Counted from the stretch's first letter, positions 3,022-56,075 are shown. The stretch: DNA of 64,000 nt from Pseudonocardiales bacterium (GCA_023252195.1 JAHEXI010000014.1:1-64000); one strand, 5' to 3'. The notes: a model not told the origin generated them from the sequence alone. A program made the numbers and translations.

Positions 3022-3750
3022 ACTTTCATCAGGGCGGCGGTTCAGGAGCCCGCTATGGCTGCTGTCTCGGGTGGTGGCCCGGTGCGTCACAACTGAGACC
3101 GGCTCGTACGCAGCGTGGCAGCACCGCCAGCCAGGGGAGGCGCGGACCTACCCGGCGGTTGCCTCTCGATGTCGGCCTGTGCTGGCGACGTGACTGGGTT
3201 CGGCGCTGAAACGATCATGAGTTGACAGCGGGCTCACCGCGTTGAGCTGCCTGACGGCAACCCTACGACCGATGCCCGAATCGCCGAAGTTGCAGATGAC
3301 AGTGATCGAGTTGTGGTCGCCGAAGCACCTCGCCGCGATCGTTGCAGCGCTGGATGAGGGCGACCTCGTCGAGTTCGGCCAGGACGTGCTGGTCGTACGC
3401 CGACGTCGTGGTGATGATGAACCGTCGGGTGACCTTCGCGTCAGTCGCGTTCGCGCACCAGACCGTATGGAGCTCCGCTTGCGTGGTCGCGGCGATCTGG
3501 TTTGCGGAAAGATGGCCTGAGGTCCTCGTAGGTGAGCAGCTCGAGGAGCGGCCGGTGGTCATGGTGCTTGAATGTATCGACCGACGTTGCCGGAGAGTGC
3601 AGAGTCTTGGGCCATTCCGTCACTGGGCGATCTTGGTTGATATCGCAATCCGTGCGTCAGCTTCGACTCTTGTGACCCACAGTTCGAGCCTCGCACCACG
3701 CGCCGCACCACGAATTGGCAGCTCAGAGCTGCTTTGTGTCTCTGGCTTGG
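3022..3750. other. No supportable gene
   Basis: Overlapping open frames exist on both strands at 3242-3562 but none shows a known domain. The stretch may hold scrambled remnants. CGCACCAC-type motifs near 3690-3710 resemble those beside the 1896 repeat and could be integrase arm sites. Confidence 0.35.
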
Positions 3751-3793
3751 TGCCCCCGGCAGGATTCGAACCTGCGACACACGGTTTAGGAAA
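3751..3793 (-). repeat. Attachment site: 43-bp copy of tRNA-Arg(CCT) 3' part (distal end of island)
   Basis: Forty-two of 43 bases equal 47770-47812, covering acceptor 3' strand, T-arm, variable region, anticodon 3' stem and anticodon loop. Both copies have the same orientation. Identity stops exactly in the anticodon loop, where tyrosine integrases commonly cross over in tRNA genes. Together with the integrase next to the intact tRNA, this marks the far end of a roughly 44-kb integrated element. Confidence 0.85.
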
Positions 3794-46108: not shown

Positions 46109-46278
46109 GCACTGTTGCATTGAGGCGAAGGGTGTCCTCTCCATGGCCCAAAGCAGCAATCATGCTCCCAGGCCCCGCGGAGAACTATGACAAATCGGGA
46201 ACCCGAGGTCTGCTGCGCGGCTTCTAGGCAGGTATGTGGGACCAGCTCGGGCGGACCGATCGCTCAATGCAACAGTGC
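46109..46278. mobile_element. 170-bp IS6-end-like MITE, copy 3 (diverged), in the integrase 3' end
   Basis: Same ends as copies 1 and 2 (GCACTGTTGCATTGAGGC ... GCTCAATGCAACAGTGC) and the same GTGGCCCAAAGCAGCAA-like interior, but with many changes. A partial extra end GGCACTGTTGC lies just left of it (46096-46106). It supplies the last codons and the stop of the integrase gene, so the natural integrase tail has been lost. Confidence 0.85.
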
Positions 46279-47642
46279 CGTCCAGACTCCTTGAGAAGAG
46301 CGATGGCGCGGTTGACGGTGCCGGCGGAGACGTTGTGTTGCGCAGCCAATTCGGTGGACGTGGGCAGCGGTGAGCCAGGGGCCAATTCGCCGCGTTCGAT
46401 CGCGGCGCGGATTTCGGCGGCGAGCGTCTCGTAGGCATTTCGTGGTGTCCGGCGCGTGGGGTCTGGTTGGGGCATGAGGTTGGCGATAGCGTCGGCGGCT
46501 CGACGATCGGCCTCATCGACCCATGCGGCATAGAAGCGGAGAGTGGTTGCTCCGCCGGAGCCGTGGCCGAGGCGACCGGCGACGGTGCGTAGGTCAACGC
46601 CGGCTGTGAGCAGCTCGGTGGCGGAGTAGTGGCGTAGGGAGTGGATGCGTGTACTGCGTAGACCGAGACGGGTTGCGAGGCGTCGGTACTTCTGGGTGAC
46701 GGTGCTGGGGAGCAGGGCAGTGGAGCAGTCAGGGCTACTAGAGAACACGAAGGCGTCTCGGGGTAGTTCGATCTCGAGTGCTGCGCACTCGGACTCCGAT
46801 TGCGTTCGGTAGACGGTGAGCAGGTCCACGGTGTGCGCGTCGAGCGCGATACGGCGTTTCTGCCGGGTCTTGGTCGACTTCTCGCGGTTGCCTTCGGCGG
46901 TCTGCGCGTAACTGCGTTCCACGGTCATGATGCCGCGGGGGAGGTCGAGGTCGGTCCAGCGCAGTGCGCACATCTCGCCGCGGCGGCAGCCGGACACCAT
47001 CGTCAGCCAGAGGAACATGGCCCAGGCCGGGTCCTGCCAGGTGTCGTTGAGCAGTGCGGCAACCTCGGCGGCGGACGGAGGGTCGGGGTCGGGCCGCTCG
47101 AACGATGGCGGCGTGGCGAACGCGGCTTCGTTGTTGCCGAGGTAGCGCCAGCGCACGGCCCGGTCGAGTGCGGCACGAAGAATGAAATGGACCTGTCGTA
47201 CGGTGGATGCGGACAGTGGTCGACAGTCGTGGTCCTTCGCCCGCCCGCTGCAGAGCTTGTTGCAGTGGCGCAGCCGGGCATAGAAGCGTTCCAGCAGCTC
47301 GGCGTCGAGCTTGGCCGCGAGCATCAAGCCGAACGTCGGACCAATGTACAGGCGGATCAGGCCCTTGTAGCGCTGGCGGGTGGTGTCCTCGAGCTCGGTA
47401 ACCCCGAGCCACTTCTCGACCACCTGGCCGATGGTTATCGCACTGCGTGGGTGCCGCTGCTCGTCGACCTGAGACTGGAGCTTCGTCAGCTCGATCTCGG
47501 CTTGCGCGTGCGTCTTCGCGGATTTGCGCAGGTAGCGCTCCTTGCGTGTCAGCGGGTCAACGCCGGCATACACGATGGCCCGAAACGTGCCGTTGGGTCG
47601 GGTCTCGATGTGCCCACGGGGACGATGCTTGCGGCCTGCCAT
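46224..47642 (-). CDS. Tyrosine site-specific integrase with C-terminal GntR-like winged helix
   Basis: 472 residues. An arm-binding region (about 1-65) and a SAM-like core-binding domain lead to the catalytic domain. Arg220 (SGCRRGEMCAL), His334 and Arg337 (HSLRHYS), His360 (LGHGSGG) and Tyr371 (RFYAAW) form the active site. Residues about 403-455 form a GntR-type winged helix (YETLAAEIRAAIERGE, LAAQHNVSAGTVNRAIALL). From Arg455 on the codons belong to the inserted 170-bp element. The catalytic part is intact. The gene lies beside the tRNA-Arg(CCT) 3' end and should have driven integration and excision of the island between 3751 and 47812. Confidence 0.9.
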   Translation of the reverse strand: MAGRKHRPRGHIETRPNGTFRAIVYAGVDPLTRKERYLRKSAKTHAQAEIELTKLQSQVDEQRHPRSAITIGQVVEKWLGVTELEDTTRQRYKGLIRLYIGPTFGLMLAAKLDAELLERFYARLRHCNKLCSGRAKDHDCRPLSASTVRQVHFILRAALDRAVRWRYLGNNEAAFATPPSFERPDPDPPSAAEVAALLNDTWQDPAWAMFLWLTMVSGCRRGEMCALRWTDLDLPRGIMTVERSYAQTAEGNREKSTKTRQKRRIALDAHTVDLLTVYRTQSESECAALEIELPRDAFVFSSSPDCSTALLPSTVTQKYRRLATRLGLRSTRIHSLRHYSATELLTAGVDLRTVAGRLGHGSGGATTLRFYAAWVDEADRRAADAIANLMPQPDPTRRTPRNAYETLAAEIRAAIERGELAPGSPLPTSTELAAQHNVSAGTVNRAIALLKESGRHCCIERSVRPSWSHIPA

Positions 47643-47720: not shown

Positions 47721-47769
47721 GAGGACTTCGACTGAGTATCCTCGGCGAGTCTGTGCTGCTCAAATGATG

Positions 47770-47812
47770 TGCCCCCGGCAGGATTCGAACCTGCGACGCA
47801 CGGTTTAGGAAA
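47770..47812 (-). repeat. Attachment site at the intact tRNA (integrase-proximal end of island)
   Basis: This 43-bp segment, from discriminator base through the anticodon loop, is repeated at 3751-3793 with one mismatch and at 1896-1935 with a two-base gap. It is the integrase-side end of the element. Confidence 0.85.
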
Positions 47813-47842
47813 CCGATGCTCTATCCCCTGAGCTACGAGGGC
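47770..47842 (-). tRNA. tRNA-Arg (anticodon CCT)
   Basis: 73 bases on the minus strand fold as a complete cloverleaf: acceptor GCCCTCG/CGGGGGC, D-arm with AGCTCAGGGGATAGAGC, anticodon loop TTCCTAA with CCT (complement at 47807-47809), T-arm GCAGG-TTCGAAT-CCTGC and discriminator A. It reads AGG codons. CCA is not encoded. Its 3' 43 bases form the attachment core shared with 3751-3793, so the gene was restored by the integrating element. Confidence 0.95.
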
Positions 47843-48677: not shown

Positions 48678-49811
48678 GTGAGTCTCAGGACATCATTGGT
48701 GGCTGCTGTGGCGGAGGCCTCGAACACCGAGGACAGTGGTAAAGGCTTCTTCAGCGGACGTTCGGTCGCGTTTTGGACCATCATAGGGAGCGTCGCGGGG
48801 GTGTTGTCGTTGCTCGTGGCAGTCCTGAGCTTCCTGGTTTCAACTCGGGCGCCCGCACCAGCTCAGCAACAGGATGCGACCGCACCGATCCGTACCGGCA
48901 CCCCCACGGCTCGCCTGGCAGGATCCATTCCCGTTGCAGGCAGCCCGAGCGGTCTCTTGGTGGCCCCGGACGGACGTCGCGCTTATGTGACCCACCTTTC
49001 CGGCGCTCTGTCGATGATCGACACGGCCACCAACACGGTTACCGCCACTATCGACGTTGGAGGTGGCGCGCTTGGCGTGGCAATGACGCCGGACGGGAGC
49101 CACGTCTATGTGGCGCATTGGGGCTCCTCGATGGTGTCTGTGATCGACACCGCCACCAACACCGTCATCGCCACCATCAACGTCGGAAGCGTTCAGTGGG
49201 ATGTGGCGGTGACTCCGGATGGGCGCTGGGCTTATGTGACCAATCGGGGCTCTGGCATCGTCTCTGTGATCAATACTGCCACCAACACTGTCGCCACCGC
49301 GGTCGATATCGGAGGCGATCGGGCAGACAACCCGGTTGAGGTGGCGGTGACTCCGGATGGGCGTCGAGCTTATGTGACCAACCGGGGCTCTGGCACGGTG
49401 TCGGTGATCGATACTGCGACCAACACCGTTACTACCACCATTCGCGTCCAAAGCGGTCCAAACGGCGTGGCGGTGGCCCCGGACGGGCGTTACGCCTACG
49501 TGACCAACGAAGGCGCCGATACGGTGTCGGTAATTGATACCATCACCAACGCCGTCACGGCGACGATCACCGTTGGCAATGCTCCAGTGACGGTGGCAGT
49601 GGCCCCAGACAGCCATCGCGCCTACGTCGTTGACCGGGCTTCCAATGCCTTGGCGGCCTTGTCGGTGATTGACACTGCCGCCAACACCGTCATTGCAACG
49701 GTAGGTATCGGAGGTGATCCGGGCGCTGTGGTGGTGACCCCGGACGGGCGGCACGCCTACGTGACCAACCAGGGTTCCAACGCCGTATCGTTGATCGACA
49801 CCGGCATATGA
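48678..49811 (+). CDS. Membrane-anchored YVTN beta-propeller repeat protein
   Basis: 377 residues. One membrane helix (about 30-55, FWTIIGSVAGVLSLLVAVLS) anchors an outside domain made of seven YVTN-type blades with the recurring core VAVTPDGRRAYVTNRGSGTV and SVIDTATNTVTATI. Such propellers are binding platforms on the cell surface. The GTG at 48678 is used; the GTG at 48699 has a slightly better AGGA upstream. The blades are very similar to each other at the DNA level, so copy number may vary between strains. It lies between two integrase remnants. Confidence 0.8.
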   Translation: MSLRTSLVAAVAEASNTEDSGKGFFSGRSVAFWTIIGSVAGVLSLLVAVLSFLVSTRAPAPAQQQDATAPIRTGTPTARLAGSIPVAGSPSGLLVAPDGRRAYVTHLSGALSMIDTATNTVTATIDVGGGALGVAMTPDGSHVYVAHWGSSMVSVIDTATNTVIATINVGSVQWDVAVTPDGRWAYVTNRGSGIVSVINTATNTVATAVDIGGDRADNPVEVAVTPDGRRAYVTNRGSGTVSVIDTATNTVTTTIRVQSGPNGVAVAPDGRYAYVTNEGADTVSVIDTITNAVTATITVGNAPVTVAVAPDSHRAYVVDRASNALAALSVIDTAANTVIATVGIGGDPGAVVVTPDGRHAYVTNQGSNAVSLIDTGI

Positions 49812-49826
49812 TGTCGACACTTACGG

Positions 49827-51320
49827 TCAAGTCGCAGAACCGTTGCATGCTATGGAATCGCTCCGCGCTCGCAACGCATTCAGGAACGCTGAGTAGCTCC
49901 ATGTAAGGTTCTCGACGCTCTTCTCGAACCCGGTGGACTTGTCGAACTGTTCGCTGAGCTCGAGATGGTTGCTGTGATAGACGACCGAGTCGAGCATCTT
50001 GTCCCCGGCATCCCTCAGCACGTCGGCTGCGTTGGCTTCGTGCCCCGCCGCGGGATTGATGCCGAGCTTGCTAAAGAATTCCTCAGCTTTGACGACCGTT
50101 GCTGCAGCGATACCGTCTGCTTGCAACGGGAATTTCAACAGGCCGCGCTTCAGCGCTGAAGCGACGCAGTAGTAGAACGCCCCGTAATTGGCAGTGCAAA
50201 GAGCCCAGGGGTGGCCTGTGCTCTTGTTCTTTTCGTCAGTGTCCCCATCGTAGGTATCGCCAGGATAGCGGCCCATAAGGGGACCTCGGTCCGGAGCGTC
50301 CTGCACGTTAATCGGGTAAACGAGGTCGGCCGCCAACGGGTTGCCATTGCCGTTAGTAGCACCATGATCCGACCACTGGTCCCGTACCTGTGCGGCCGTC
50401 GCCAGGAGCTTCACGCCGGTACAGGGCACCGCCCCATAGATCGATGCCATGACGATGTCGATGTTCGGATCGTATGCCTTGATGTCGATGCCCGGGTTGT
50501 CGTCGGGATCCTTGACCGAGACATAGAGCCCCTTCTCGTCGCTCCAATGCGAGTCCAAGGCACCTGCCAGGGCGGTGGTGGCAGCGTCGATATCTGGCAG
50601 GTTCAGGCCGATTTCGGCCTGCTTCGCCTTCGCCTCCTTCAAGCAGCGCAGCTGTACTGCGCGGGTGAAGAAGGACATCCCTGCCAGCTCCTCCCAGAGG
50701 TTCTGGCTGGGATCGTCCTTCTTGTCGACGATGTGCTGGACGTTCTTCTCGATGACCGTCTTCGCGTCGTTCTGCGACTGCGCGGAGAGCTGGCCGAAGC
50801 ACTGCATGATCGCGAGGCTCTGCAACGCGGGTCCGTCGTACTGCGGCCCGCGTTTATCCCACGGTGTGCCGTCGACGTAGAACGTCGCGTGGCCTATGTC
50901 GCCCTTCGCGACCTTTGGATCAGCTGCTGCGTTGTCTTGACACAGCTTGGCGAAGGAGACGTAGTCGATCATGCGCTGAGACTCTGTCGCGCCCGGTGGC
51001 GGCTCGTCGAACGACAGCTCGATGGCCGCGAGGGCAGCATCACGGGTCCAGTTGTAGACGTAGTCCTGGTTGAGCGGAGCGCCATGGACCGCCTTTTGCT
51101 CGGCGTCGTACGAGGGAGAAGCTATCAAGCAGCCCGGCTCGGAGTACTTGGTGGCGCCCCCGTTGTAGCCGTGCTCGCTGGGTACCCAGGCGATCACATA
51201 TCCGCTGGTTGCCATGTTGCGCTGCATGGCCGCGAGGAACGTCGAGCGAGGTTGAGCCACGCCCTCGGGCCGCGTTAGATCGAACCTGGTCTGATTCTTG
51301 GCGTACACCCGTGCTGGCAT
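49827..51320 (-). CDS. Fungal-type GH15 glucoamylase without signal peptide
   Basis: 497 residues from ATG 51318-51320. The order of motifs follows fungal glucoamylases: DYVYNWTRDAALAAIELSFD, DGTPWDKRGPQYDGPALQSL, NLWEELAGMSFFTRAVQLRC with the catalytic acid, MGRYPGDTYDG...HPWALCTANYG, and LSEQFDKSTGFEKSVENLTW with the catalytic base and the final WSYSAFL. These enzymes release glucose from starch ends with inversion. No secretion signal or starch-binding domain is present, which suggests an intracellular role or loss of a leader. It differs in type from the split bacterial GH15 of the island. Confidence 0.85.
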   Translation of the reverse strand: MPARVYAKNQTRFDLTRPEGVAQPRSTFLAAMQRNMATSGYVIAWVPSEHGYNGGATKYSEPGCLIASPSYDAEQKAVHGAPLNQDYVYNWTRDAALAAIELSFDEPPPGATESQRMIDYVSFAKLCQDNAAADPKVAKGDIGHATFYVDGTPWDKRGPQYDGPALQSLAIMQCFGQLSAQSQNDAKTVIEKNVQHIVDKKDDPSQNLWEELAGMSFFTRAVQLRCLKEAKAKQAEIGLNLPDIDAATTALAGALDSHWSDEKGLYVSVKDPDDNPGIDIKAYDPNIDIVMASIYGAVPCTGVKLLATAAQVRDQWSDHGATNGNGNPLAADLVYPINVQDAPDRGPLMGRYPGDTYDGDTDEKNKSTGHPWALCTANYGAFYYCVASALKRGLLKFPLQADGIAAATVVKAEEFFSKLGINPAAGHEANAADVLRDAGDKMLDSVVYHSNHLELSEQFDKSTGFEKSVENLTWSYSAFLNALRARSDSIACNGSAT

Positions 51321-51401
51321 CTTTGCCCCCAAGTCGTGGCTGTGTCGTGACGAGTCTGGCCCGTGGCGAGGATCGTCGCGTTGCACCCGCTGACGGCTCA
51401 C

Positions 51402-52096
51402 TGGCGATGACCACCTGTGAGCCCTAGTTTGGACAATCTGGGAGGCTGTTGCTTAGATCACCTTGGTCGTGTTCTCAAGATCGTCAATAGTGAGTGATTA
51501 CCGTGCAGGATCGCACGGCCATCACTCACTTTCGGCGATCATGGCAGGTCGTTGGGCTGTCGGCCGGATCCACTAGCGGATCCTCCCAGAACACGAGGTC
51601 CACGACTGCTAGTGCCGGCGTGAGACGGCGCTACGCCAGGGCTCGAAAGTTCTCGTGCCCACTGCGGCGGCACTGTGGGTGCGGCCGTCAACCACGCGCA
51701 GGCGGATAGGACGAACTCAGCCTCGCTGGTCATTGATCGTGTCCTCATGTCCGTCGACCCAGTTGCCCCCTAGCCTCCCATCGGTGAGCGCAACGGACCC
51801 TCGGTCGCCATCGCGGTGCGCCAGCGGCTTGCGGACGACGCGCTGCATGTCGGCCACGTTCCGTAACACCATCTGGCGCCGCCGCGATTACAGAGTATGT
51901 CCGGCGACTTGCAGCGAGTAGCGTGGCAGCCACAGCAGGCCTGCTGGCGGTCGATGTTCCGCTCCACCAGCGGAGGCGGAGGCCGAGCGTGGCGTCTAGG
52001 CGGTGCCCGGTATCGCCCCTGACGGCAGGAATTTTTTCTTTTCCGGATGGCTGGACCCGCTAGATCGACGCATCAAGAGAGACTGGCCATATCACG
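51402..52096. other. Remnant region with an integrase scrap
   Basis: About 700 bases. The segment 51727-51757 repeats 47989-48019 with one mismatch and encodes the same integrase tail (DGHEDTINDQ). Nothing else is recognisable. It suggests that an older element once reached from the tRNA to here. Confidence 0.55.
51727..51770 (-). pseudogene. Integrase C-terminal scrap repeated from 47.99 kb
   Basis: Thirty of 31 bases equal 47989-48019 and read NWVDGHEDTINDQ on the minus strand. Same gene family as the broken integrase at 47871-48540. It brackets the YVTN and glucoamylase genes between two copies. Confidence 0.65.
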
Positions 52097-53200
52097 ATGC
52101 TGCAAGCCTACCGCGTGTCTATTGAAGCAGCGGGTATCGATGCCCGTCCGGCCTGGGCAGACCTGGTCAGGCAGGACCAGAGCATCGCGCTTTCCAAGAC
52201 ACCGCAATGGGTCGATTGCATATGCAGTTCCGATCACTTCTCAGACGCCACTTTGCTGTTTCGAGGAGAAGATGGGCGTCGACTGATCCTGCCTCGACTG
52301 CGGAATCCTTCGCTCCCGGGAATATTCGCGTCACCTCCGCGCCATTGGAACCTGGGCGCTGATGCGAGCGGTTTCCTCAGCGAAGGAGGGCCACCGTCGC
52401 CCCGAGAGGCCAGTGCGCTGATCCAGGAAATCCGACGTCATCCTGGTCTGCGCACCCGCGTCGTGGTGGGTAAGGAGGATGCCCAGGTGTGGGCGTCAGC
52501 GGTTCCAAGCACGGTCTATTGCGTCGCCCGGACCGCGCAGGTACTCGATCTCTGCGGCAGTTTTTCTTCAGTCTGGTCGAAACAGTTCACGGGCAAGGTG
52601 CGATCCAATTGCCGGAAAGCCGAACGACGGGGCGTCGTTGTGGAATCGGACAGTACTGGGCGGCTGATTCCGGCCTTCGACATACTATATCGCAGCTCCG
52701 TCGACAGATGGGCTCAGGAGAGAGGTTATCCCTTAACGTTGATGCGCTGGCTTGCGCAGCGCCAGCACCCGCAGAAAAAGTTCGCCACAGTGGCCCGCAG
52801 GTTGGCGGAGTGTTGCACTGTTTGGATAGCGTGGCGGCAGGGCGAGCCTATCGCTGGCATCATCAATTTGACGAGGGGTCCGCGAGTCACCTACTGGCGG
52901 GGTGCGATGGACAAAGAACGTTCGCGTGGCACCGGTGCGAATGAACTTCTCCATCGTTGCGCGATCGAGGCCGCCTGCGCAGGTGAACGACAGAGCTATG
53001 ATTTCGGCCTATCCCAAACTGCCGATTTAAAGAGATTCAAGGGTACTTTTGGAGCAGGTGAAGTCCCCGTGCACATCTACTACTTCGAGAGGTTTCCCAC
53101 CGTGGCTACCGAGACCAAGTGCTACGACGCGGCTAAGCAGAGTGTCCGAGCTGCGATGCGGCTCACGCACACGGGTAGGTTAAGCCAGGGCGCCCGATAA
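52097..53200 (+). CDS. FemAB/GNAT-like acyltransferase, first paralogue
   Basis: 367 residues. Two GNAT-like subdomains are suggested: an N-terminal half with TPQWVDCICSSDHFSDATLL and DASGFLSEGG, and a C-terminal half with GKVRSNCRKAERRGVVVESD, FDILYRSSVDRWAQERGYP, WRGAMDKERSRGTGANELL and FGLSQTADLKRFKGTFGAGE. The RKAE and FKxxFG segments are typical of FemAB/BioF2-type acetyltransferase-fold proteins that modify cell-wall or exopolysaccharide units. A close paralogue follows at 54975 with a flippase between, so the three probably build and export one product. Soluble, no signal peptide. Confidence 0.75.
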   Translation: MLQAYRVSIEAAGIDARPAWADLVRQDQSIALSKTPQWVDCICSSDHFSDATLLFRGEDGRRLILPRLRNPSLPGIFASPPRHWNLGADASGFLSEGGPPSPREASALIQEIRRHPGLRTRVVVGKEDAQVWASAVPSTVYCVARTAQVLDLCGSFSSVWSKQFTGKVRSNCRKAERRGVVVESDSTGRLIPAFDILYRSSVDRWAQERGYPLTLMRWLAQRQHPQKKFATVARRLAECCTVWIAWRQGEPIAGIINLTRGPRVTYWRGAMDKERSRGTGANELLHRCAIEAACAGERQSYDFGLSQTADLKRFKGTFGAGEVPVHIYYFERFPTVATETKCYDAAKQSVRAAMRLTHTGRLSQGAR

Positions 53201-53265
53201 TACTGACCTGATGATCCCCGTGGGATGGCGTCGCGTGCCAGCACCTCGACGACCGGAGGCAACAT

Positions 53266-54957
53266 GTGCGGGTTCTCCCGCGACGTGCAACCCTGGCGAC
53301 GTGGCACAGGCTGCCATCCACGATCGCTCCGGGCCACCATCTCGGGTTGGTGGATCTGGTGACAGCGCTTGACGGCGAAACGCCCACCACCACGGCGCGG
53401 AACTCGGCCACGGTTGCCTGCTGGACGCTGATCAGCAGGGCCACCGGGTTGCTGAGGGTGGTCGTGATCGGCGCGGTGCTGGGGCCCACCTATTTCGCCA
53501 ACTGTTTCCAGGCCGGCTACGTCGTGCCGAGCATAGTGTTCACGTTGATTGCCGGGCCGGTACTGGCGATGGTGCTGGTGCCTGGCGTCGTCCGCGCCAT
53601 CGGCGTCGGGGGTCTGCCTCGGGCCCGGGAGATGCTCGGCCGGGTGGCCGGGTGGCTACTCGCGGTCTCGTCCGCGGTCGTCGCGTTGTTGGTGATCGCC
53701 GCACCGGCGGTGGCCTGGACGCTGAGCCTCGGGATTCCTGATCCGGTGCAACGTGGCCGGGGCCTGTGGCTGACCACGTTGCTGGTCCTGCTTGTCGCCC
53801 CGCAGATCCTGCTGAACTGCCTGGCTTACCTGGGCATGACCGCCCAACGGGCGCGTGGGCGCTTCGCGCTCGCGTCGGCCGCACCGGCCGTGGAGAACCT
53901 CGTACTGATCCTGACGGTGGCGCTGTCGGGCTGGTATTACGGGACGGGCCTTGACATCGATCACGTGCCGGTCGGTCTGGTGATCGTACTGGGGGTGGGC
54001 AGTACGTCGGGTGTTGCGCTGCACGCGGCATTGCAGCTGTTCGGTGCGGCGCGGGTGGGTCTGCTGACCCGCCCGTCGATGCGTTGGCGCCACGACCCCG
54101 AGGCAGTCGCAGTGACCCGCAGGTTGGCCCGCTCGGTCGGCGTGGCGGCCTGCCCGGCAGCAGCGATGTACGTGCTGTTCGCGCTGGCCGGCTCAGTGCC
54201 CGGTGGCGTGTTCGTCGTCCAACTGTCCTACGCCACGTTGTTTTCGCTGTCCTACATCAGCGCCCGTGCGGTGTCGATGGCCGCGCTTCCGGGGCTGGCA
54301 CACGCCGCCCATCGCGAGGACGGCGTCACCTTCGGCTCGGCATGGCGCCAAGGCCTGTCCTACGCCGTGATCGCCAGCTTGCCGCTGCTGGTGTTGCTCG
54401 CGGTGCTCTCCGGACCCACTGCGAACATTCTCGCCAACGGCGAGTTGCGCCATGCGGCCCTGATCGGTCCACTCGCTACCTGCCTGGCGGTGGTGGCGGT
54501 AGCCCAGCTGATCGGCGGGCTGTGCGACCTCGGTAGCCAGGCCCTATACGCGCGGCTGGACGACCGCATCCCGCGGCGGGCCAGTGAGGTGGCGTTCGGC
54601 GTGACGGTGGTGGTCGCCGCCGGGGCCCTGCTCGTGCCAGCCGATGGGGCCCGCCTCGTTTGGCTGGTGGTGGCCATCCTGGCCGGTGAGCTCGCCGCCG
54701 CCGGGATGGTGCTGACGCGGTTGCGCCGGGTGATCCAGCCCGAGCGGTTCATCGAACTCCGAGCTCTTGCCGGCGCGCTGATGGCCACGGTCGCGATGGT
54801 GCCGGTGGCTGCCGCGGTGTGGTGGATTCAGCATGTCCACAATGGCAGTCAGCTCAGCAACCTCGCAGTTCTTACCTTAGGTGGGATCGTAGCGCTCGCG
54901 GTCTATGCACTAGTGCTACGGGCCACGATGGTGCGACGGACCAGCACGGCGTCATGA
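53266..54957 (+). CDS. MurJ/MviN-family lipid-linked glycan flippase
   Basis: 563 residues with about 14 membrane helices. The start NSATVACWTLISRATGLLRV and VVIGAVLGPTYFANCFQAGY is the MurJ/MviN signature, and helix pairs continue to VLTLGGIVALAVYALVLRAT. MurJ-type proteins flip lipid-linked sugars, such as lipid II or an exopolysaccharide unit, across the membrane. GGAGG lies six bases before the GTG at 53266. Its stop overlaps an ATG and lies 18 bases before the second FemAB-like start. Since a housekeeping MurJ normally sits near the origin, this is likely a specialised copy for the FemAB-modified product. Confidence 0.8.
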   Translation: MRVLPRRATLATWHRLPSTIAPGHHLGLVDLVTALDGETPTTTARNSATVACWTLISRATGLLRVVVIGAVLGPTYFANCFQAGYVVPSIVFTLIAGPVLAMVLVPGVVRAIGVGGLPRAREMLGRVAGWLLAVSSAVVALLVIAAPAVAWTLSLGIPDPVQRGRGLWLTTLLVLLVAPQILLNCLAYLGMTAQRARGRFALASAAPAVENLVLILTVALSGWYYGTGLDIDHVPVGLVIVLGVGSTSGVALHAALQLFGAARVGLLTRPSMRWRHDPEAVAVTRRLARSVGVAACPAAAMYVLFALAGSVPGGVFVVQLSYATLFSLSYISARAVSMAALPGLAHAAHREDGVTFGSAWRQGLSYAVIASLPLLVLLAVLSGPTANILANGELRHAALIGPLATCLAVVAVAQLIGGLCDLGSQALYARLDDRIPRRASEVAFGVTVVVAAGALLVPADGARLVWLVVAILAGELAAAGMVLTRLRRVIQPERFIELRALAGALMATVAMVPVAAAVWWIQHVHNGSQLSNLAVLTLGGIVALAVYALVLRATMVRRTSTAS

Positions 54958-54974
54958 TTCGAGAGGTCGGTCGC

Positions 54975-56075
54975 ATGGTGCTTCCTCACGCTTATCGCCT
55001 GTCCGTTGAAGCGGAGGGTGCGGCAGCCCGTCCCGCGTGGGAAGCCTTAGTGGCCCGTAACGAGAACATCGCGCTTTCGATGACCCCCGACTGGACTGAC
55101 TGCATATGCGGTTCGAGCCGCTTCTCGGACGCAACTTTACTGTTCCGGGGAGAAGATGGGCGACAGCTGATCCTGCCTCGTCTACGGAAAACCGGAACGC
55201 CCACCTTGCTGGGACTGTTCGAATCACCGCCGCCGGGATGGGGTCTTGGTGCTGATGCGAGTGGTTTCCTCGGCGACGGAGGTCCAGCGTCGCCCACCCA
55301 GACCCGGGACCTGATCCAGGAGATCCGACGCCTTCCTGGGTTGCGCACCCGCATCATGGTGGGTGGGGCCGACGCCGCGGTGTGGGCGTCAGTGGCTCCC
55401 AGCACTATATATTCCACCGCCTTGACCGCGCAGGTGCTCGATCTTCGCGGTGGTTTTTCCACGGTCTGGTCGGAACGGTTCACGAGCAAGGTGCGATCCA
55501 ATGCTCGAAAAGCAGAACGACGGAACGTCACTGTGGAGTCGGACAATACTGGACGACTCGTGCCGGTCTTCGACATGCTGTATCGGAGCTCCGTCGACAG
55601 ATGGGCTCAGCAGCGGGGTCATCCGGTATCCCTGATGCGCTGGCGGGCGCAGCGCCGCGAGCCGCGAAGCAAATTCGCGATAGTGGCACGGCGGATGGGC
55701 GAGCGTTGCACCGTGTGGATAGCGTGGCAGGGCGGTGAACCCCTCGCAGGCATCATCGTCCTCACGAGAGGCTCGCGGGCTACCTACTGGCGGGGTGCAA
55801 TGGACAAGGAACGCGCGCGGGGTACTGGCGCGAACGAACTTCTCCACCGTTACGCCATCGAGGCGGTATGCGCCGATGAACGACAGAGCTACGACTTCGG
55901 GCTATCCCAAACTGAAGAGCTGAAGAGATTCAAAAATACTTTCGGGACGCGGGAAGTTCCGGTGCACGCATACTACTTGGAGAGACTGCCCACGGCGGCT
56001 GCCGAAGCGAAGGCTTACAACGCCGCCAAGCAGACTGTGCGGGCTGTAGCGCGGCTCGCGCGCACCGGTCGGTGA
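54975..56075 (+). CDS. FemAB/GNAT-like acyltransferase, second paralogue
   Basis: 366 residues, collinear with the first paralogue (YRLSVEAEGAAARPAWEALV, TPDWTDCICGSSRFSDATLL, SKVRSNARKAERRNVTVESD, FGLSQTEELKRFKNTFGTRE). I chose ATG 54975, preceded by GAGAGGTCGG, because it fits the first paralogue; ATG 54954 overlapping the flippase stop is the other option. Two related transferases around one flippase suggest two successive additions to the same lipid-linked precursor. Likely cytoplasmic, acting at the inner membrane face. Confidence 0.75.
   Translation: MVLPHAYRLSVEAEGAAARPAWEALVARNENIALSMTPDWTDCICGSSRFSDATLLFRGEDGRQLILPRLRKTGTPTLLGLFESPPPGWGLGADASGFLGDGGPASPTQTRDLIQEIRRLPGLRTRIMVGGADAAVWASVAPSTIYSTALTAQVLDLRGGFSTVWSERFTSKVRSNARKAERRNVTVESDNTGRLVPVFDMLYRSSVDRWAQQRGHPVSLMRWRAQRREPRSKFAIVARRMGERCTVWIAWQGGEPLAGIIVLTRGSRATYWRGAMDKERARGTGANELLHRYAIEAVCADERQSYDFGLSQTEELKRFKNTFGTREVPVHAYYLERLPTAAAEAKAYNAAKQTVRAVARLARTGR

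Follow-up and report, generated by a model that had tools for sequence, protein, structure and literature searches.

Two related transferase genes of the FemAB type enclose a flippase gene of the MurJ family at 52097-56075 on a contig of a Pseudonocardiales bacterium (GCA_023252195.1 JAHEXI010000014.1:1-64000; the window is this whole stretch of 64,000 nt). On which lipid-linked substrate would these three genes, here called the triplet, act? A previous reading, made from the sequence only, had described the tight flanking of the flippase by the two transferases, and three open reading frames (ORFs) on the + strand with Pfam matches confirm it:

52097-53200, + strand: GNAT1, a transferase with the FemX fold and an F314-K315 pair (PF13480, 56 bits)
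53266-54957, + strand: a MurJ-family flippase of an exopolysaccharide-cluster clade (PF03023, 115.7 bits)
54954-56075, + strand: GNAT2, a transferase with the FemX fold and an F326-K327 pair (PF13480, 59 bits)

Based on the ancestry of the flippase, the linkage of the triplet and the FemX-like nature of the transferases, we read the triplet, with a probability of roughly 0.5, as a compact module for tailoring and flipping that descends from an exopolysaccharide pathway of the Wzx/Wzy type.

The gap between GNAT1 and the flippase is 65 bp and that between the flippase and GNAT2 is -4 bp; in relatives the gaps range from -20 to +165 bp. The ATG of GNAT2 at 54954 overlaps the TGA of the flippase as ATGA. 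Orthologues back this start and give no support to the start at 54819, that of the longest ORF. The start codon of the flippase is uncertain, several orthologues starting ~20-30 codons further in. GNAT1 and GNAT2 share 71% protein identity and, across 1 kb, 77% DNA identity. The third-position GC of GNAT1 and GNAT2 (0.64 and 0.67) is lower than that of the flippase (0.83) and than the gene median of the window (0.77), and similarly low values (about 0.60-0.74) recur in most GNAT copies of the genus. The genus sample consisted of 11 genomes, all draft metagenome-assembled genomes (MAGs) of uncultured soil Pseudonocardiaceae/Pseudonocardiales.

With PF03023 (MurJ/MviN) the flippase scored 115.7 bits against a gathering score of 27.4 and is a member of the family, whereas with the MurJ equivalog TIGR01695 it reached 115.9 bits, below the cut-off of 235.55 bits. 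The sequence-only reading had made its proposal depend on a further MurJ being present. The genome contains six MurJ-family genes, two of them, elsewhere in the genome, canonical (TIGR01695, 275.6 and 254.4 bits). The closest paralogues of the window flippase are C5 and C29 (73% identity each). At C5 the gene order is Gfo/Idh, DegT aminotransferase, Wzz, flippase, polymerase-like membrane protein (a role inferred for a protein that matched no family), bacterial sugar transferase, FemAB-like GNAT, GH16 and GT2. This type of cluster occurs in nine triplet-bearing genomes of the genus, this one included, although contig ends cut some of them, and in a more diverged form in seven genomes of other genera or families; the most distant of the cluster genomes (G284, G173, G707 and G704) lack some of the genes or have them rearranged. 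The triplet flippases make up a single clade of the tree (support 100/98), and because this clade nests inside that of the cluster flippases, there is good support for the window flippase being a duplicate of an exopolysaccharide-cluster flippase. On the TIGR01695 score and the tree together we rejected the reading as a lipid II flippase.

MurJ-family proteins are commonly labelled lipid II flippases, and here one clade of them is tied by context to exopolysaccharide. At C5 (L007), L076-L079 and L109-L111 a MurJ-family protein stands where a Wzx flippase is expected, mostly adjoining a FemAB-like GNAT gene; the annotation of these cluster proteins as lipid II flippases is probably wrong. Orphan copies of the exopolysaccharide-type flippase, with no cluster genes around them, were seen at L009 (C29), L084, L086, L090, L091 and L092, and the genus seems to copy this gene repeatedly. 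The arginines R18, R24, R52 and R270, which we take to be those of the Escherichia coli MurJ cavity, were not useful as a test: the positions of R18 and R24 are conserved, and the canonical actinobacterial copy also lacks R52 and R270. With a pLDDT of 60, the AF2 model of the flippase was too poor for counting the 14 transmembrane helices of MurJ and was not used.

The AF2 model of GNAT2 (pLDDT 90.6) has the double GNAT fold. It matched FemX with a VIA Z of 25.6 (302 residues, rmsd 3.4) and the aminoacyl-tRNA-dependent synthases Sbb17 and Sba18 with a Z of about 24, the top matches ranging from 23.7 to 25.6; MprF domains (Z ~18) and coenzyme A (CoA)-dependent tandem GNATs (Z at most 15.3) were weaker matches. 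A profile of 37 relatives, searched against the PDB, found Sba18 (E 2.3e-6) and FemX (E 1.3e-5), where a narrower alignment had given no match. In the profile alignment F326-K327 of GNAT2 corresponds to F304-K305 of FemX, a pair reported to be essential in that enzyme (PMC4964394); the lysine is invariant in all 37 relatives, and its counterpart in DhpH-C is likewise essential (PMC12945691). Because the FemX fold is combined with this conserved, essential pair, sequence and model slightly favour aminoacyl-tRNA over acyl-CoA as the donor. Both transferases are strongly basic (+18), and each carries a cationic, amphipathic C-terminal helix whose hydrophobic moment exceeds that of any other part of the protein, which is compatible with contact to membrane or tRNA.

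It is possible, but less probable, that the GNATs are instead HfsK-like N-acyltransferases which transfer an acyl group from acyl-CoA to an amino sugar in the exopolysaccharide repeat unit before flipping. HfsK is a FemX-like double GNAT that works in holdfast polysaccharide (PMC5362036), and the DegT aminotransferase of the related exopolysaccharide cluster would yield an amino sugar. In addition, most GNAT copies of the genus carry R-x-x-G-x-G(A) at the start of the P-loop helix of domain 2, in agreement with the GNAT consensus Q/R-x-x-G-x-G/A (PMC4964394). However, the wider family lacks this motif (e.g. ARRTDAGALL, AGPVYANYLL) and some copies of the genus have it in disrupted form, whereas the FemX-type lysine never varies, and the structural matches to CoA-dependent tandem GNATs are far worse than that to FemX.

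That the GNATs branch lipid II with an amino acid and that the flippase moves the branched lipid II, as a variant of peptidoglycan synthesis, we consider improbable. FemX is the closest characterised fold, the flippase does belong to the MurJ family, and in this genome the triplet lies upstream of a transglycosylase gene and an Rpf/LysM-like gene. Against this stands the grouping of the flippase with exopolysaccharide flippases and outside the MurJ equivalog. Neither GNAT1 nor GNAT2 matched the FemX equivalog NF047883 at E 0.001, so they are not FemX orthologues, and with the XrtA/PEP-CTERM FemAB model (TIGR03019) they scored 35.2 and 34.2 bits, far below the cut-off of 260. Moreover, cell-wall neighbours of the triplet are limited to the closest relatives. 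Cell-wall and two-component genes flank it here and in G008; the flanks are a glycerate kinase and a hydroxyacid dehydrogenase gene in G002 and G009, a trehalase and a permease gene in G001, a polyphosphate kinase gene in G004 and other genes in G003 and G007.

The triplet behaves as a fixed unit in these changing surroundings. GNAT1, flippase and GNAT2 were found in the same order and on the same strand in nine of the 11 genomes of the genus (that of G005 being cut off within GNAT2 by the contig end), and since order and strand recur in this way the arrangement is not due to chance. In a tenth genome (G006) GNAT1 and a flippase fragment are on one contig and flippase and GNAT2 on another. The triplet was not found in the remaining genus MAG, which is 87% complete. 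The conservation in other genomes that the sequence-only reading had called for is therefore present. DNA similarity across the genus begins ~250-400 bp before GNAT1 and stops at the stop codon of GNAT2. In contrast, the exopolysaccharide locus holds its gene order and, where the contig reaches, its flanking desaturase gene, except in G002. Binning or assembly artefacts could explain some of the contexts in these drafts, but are unlikely as a general explanation because independent genomes agree. All GNAT1 copies form one clade and all GNAT2 copies another (support 96/99), from which it follows that the duplication predates the diversification of the genus. Median dN/dS was 0.15 for GNAT1 and GNAT2 alike and 0.19 for the flippase; the genes are under purifying selection.

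Upstream of GNAT1 a further conserved feature was found:

51854-51876, + strand: conserved element CCACGTTCCGTAAC(GT)CATCTGG, then CGATTACAGAGCATG, ~220-240 bp 5' of GNAT1

Allowing at most 3 mismatches, the element was matched once per genome and always 5' of GNAT1, in nine of the 11 genus genomes; the reversed pattern, used as a control, was matched a single time, in one of the genomes. The element is probably a promoter or regulatory site. No RNA element upstream of GNAT1 was matched in Rfam.

The orphan flippase copies, together with the third copy of the GNAT that G008 carries (L023), could suggest that the genus duplicates both genes repeatedly and that the triplet is a chance arrangement of leftovers, passed on by descent or laterally and without common function, but this is hard to reconcile with a gene order kept despite differing surroundings, two GNAT copies retained since before the genus diversified, dN/dS values of 0.15-0.19 and a unique conserved element upstream of GNAT1, and we regard it as improbable too.

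For the tailoring-and-flipping module derived from an exopolysaccharide pathway, we infer donor, acceptor, final polymer, membrane association and step order as follows. A sugar unit would come from outside the triplet, probably as a product of the chromosomal exopolysaccharide cluster (Gfo/Idh, DegT and sugar transferase); it would contain an amino sugar and be linked to undecaprenyl diphosphate. GNAT1 and GNAT2, cytoplasmic and membrane-associating, would add aminoacyl groups to it from aminoacyl-tRNA, or alternatively acyl groups from acyl-CoA, and the co-encoded flippase would then carry the decorated unit outward. The sequence-only reading had proposed that a lipid-linked sugar receives two acyl or aminoacyl groups before it is flipped. 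This fits the fold and the context, the two separate additions being possible only.

Several findings weigh against the module as proposed. No initiating sugar transferase, chain-length or polymerase gene of the Wzx/Wzy type lies beside the triplet in the window. As the sequence-only reading had already noticed, no glycosyltransferase gene is adjacent either, and genes for making the sugar are likewise absent next to it. The CoA-type P-loop motif in most genus copies does not favour tRNA as donor. The substrate of the flippase cannot be read from its sequence, and its model is poor. The last finding concerns the neighbours of such GNATs elsewhere. GNATs of the window type are rare, occurring in 10 of the 349 genomes sampled from the order and in 6 of the 395 sampled from the class, with this genome counted in both samples; the searches scored the top few candidates per genome, so that absence is not strict. 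Outside the genus these GNATs are often in tandem and beside glycosyltransferase, UDP-sugar dehydrogenase or PMT genes, and in the loci examined from these samples and top candidates none stood beside a MurJ gene; the pairing of GNAT and flippase may therefore be local history only. The two families are also linked independently of the triplet: a second, head-to-head pair of a GNAT and a flippase gene is present on C6 (L008:7066-10266) and in G008 (L024), the C6 genes being distant paralogues with 47% and 49% identity to the window genes.

A bolder version, in which the triplet is a self-contained 'aminoacylate and flip' cassette, mobile as a unit, with sister tRNA-dependent transferases making two successive or distinct additions and a flippase that takes only the decorated unit, appears doubtful. 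Within the exopolysaccharide clade, one flippase duplicate has become firmly tied to two transferases with the FemX fold. Should aminoacyl-tRNA be the donor, tRNA-dependent amino acid transfer would extend to the building of surface polysaccharide, and the cassette would be a small system for asking whether a flippase selects a tailored substrate.

Other GNAT genes were observed in the course of the survey. Tandem arrays of two or three FemX-fold GNATs occur in other bacterial families (L059:7997-11309, L060:5385-7531 and L107), some near glycosyltransferase genes, and a second FemX-like type (the C31 type) adjoins window-type GNATs at L018:3855-5027 (G006) and L023:7919-9115 (G008).

Within the window, a tyrosine integrase gene with a GntR-type domain (46224-47642) adjoins a tRNA-Arg gene (47769-47842), fragment copies of which are found at 3750-3793 (44 bp, 98%) and 1898-1935 (38 bp, 100%). 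The region 1898-47842 is probably an integrated element of ~44-46 kb, ending at ~47.8 kb and thus short of the triplet. Between this element and the triplet lie a YncE-like beta-propeller gene with near-identical repeats (48678-49811) and, convergent with it, a GH15 gene (49827-51401). A scan for inverted repeats found no pair flanking the triplet as expected of a mobile element, only a hairpin between the GH15 gene and the triplet (51476-51543; repeat of 31 nt, 81% complementary, 6-nt loop).

No FemAB-MurJ-FemAB triplet was found in the literature searched, which left most subscription papers outside, and this suggests that the flanked three-gene cassette has not been described previously. 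The GNATs resemble the aminoacyl-tRNA transferases FemABX and MurMN in their double GNAT fold, the essential Phe-Lys pair and the pairing of genes for successive additions (femAB). The murMN genes are paired for successive additions as well. The substrates of these enzymes are peptidoglycan precursors, unlike those proposed here, and we know of no FemABX or MurMN genes in an operon with a dedicated flippase. The streptothricin-type synthases (Orf11, Sba18 and Sbb17) include the best profile match and a near-best structural match, but act on a soluble antibiotic, without a flippase. HfsK of Caulobacter crescentus shares with the GNATs the FemX-like double GNAT architecture, and it has a C-terminal extension required for its membrane localisation; it acts on exopolysaccharide, but it is a single gene controlled by cyclic di-GMP, and the part of the report available mentions no link to a flippase gene (PMC5362036).

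The closest described arrangement that we found is the Pap cluster of Pseudomonas fluorescens F113, which was characterised in silico only and combines the predicted MurJ-like flippase PapL with the predicted acetyltransferases PapN and PapO (PMC7716237), PapO being FemX-like. Unlike the triplet, Pap has the complete gene set of a Wzx/Wzy-type cluster, glycosyltransferases and a polymerase included, and comes from a different phylum; PapL is only 17% identical to MurJ, and the Pap transferases are mutually dissimilar and do not flank the flippase. The C5-type actinobacterial exopolysaccharide cluster differs from the triplet in possessing sugar, polymerase and chain-length genes and in its GNAT, which belongs to a different subfamily and is present in one copy instead of two, but it contains the closest relatives of the flippase together with a FemAB-like GNAT. 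The sequence-only reading had seen in the triplet a candidate new system. The arrangement itself is, to the extent of the literature search, without precedent, but its flippase clade comes from a cluster that already includes a FemAB-like GNAT, and by its sequence relationships the triplet branched off from exopolysaccharide machinery within this one genus and is not an unrelated new class of pathway.

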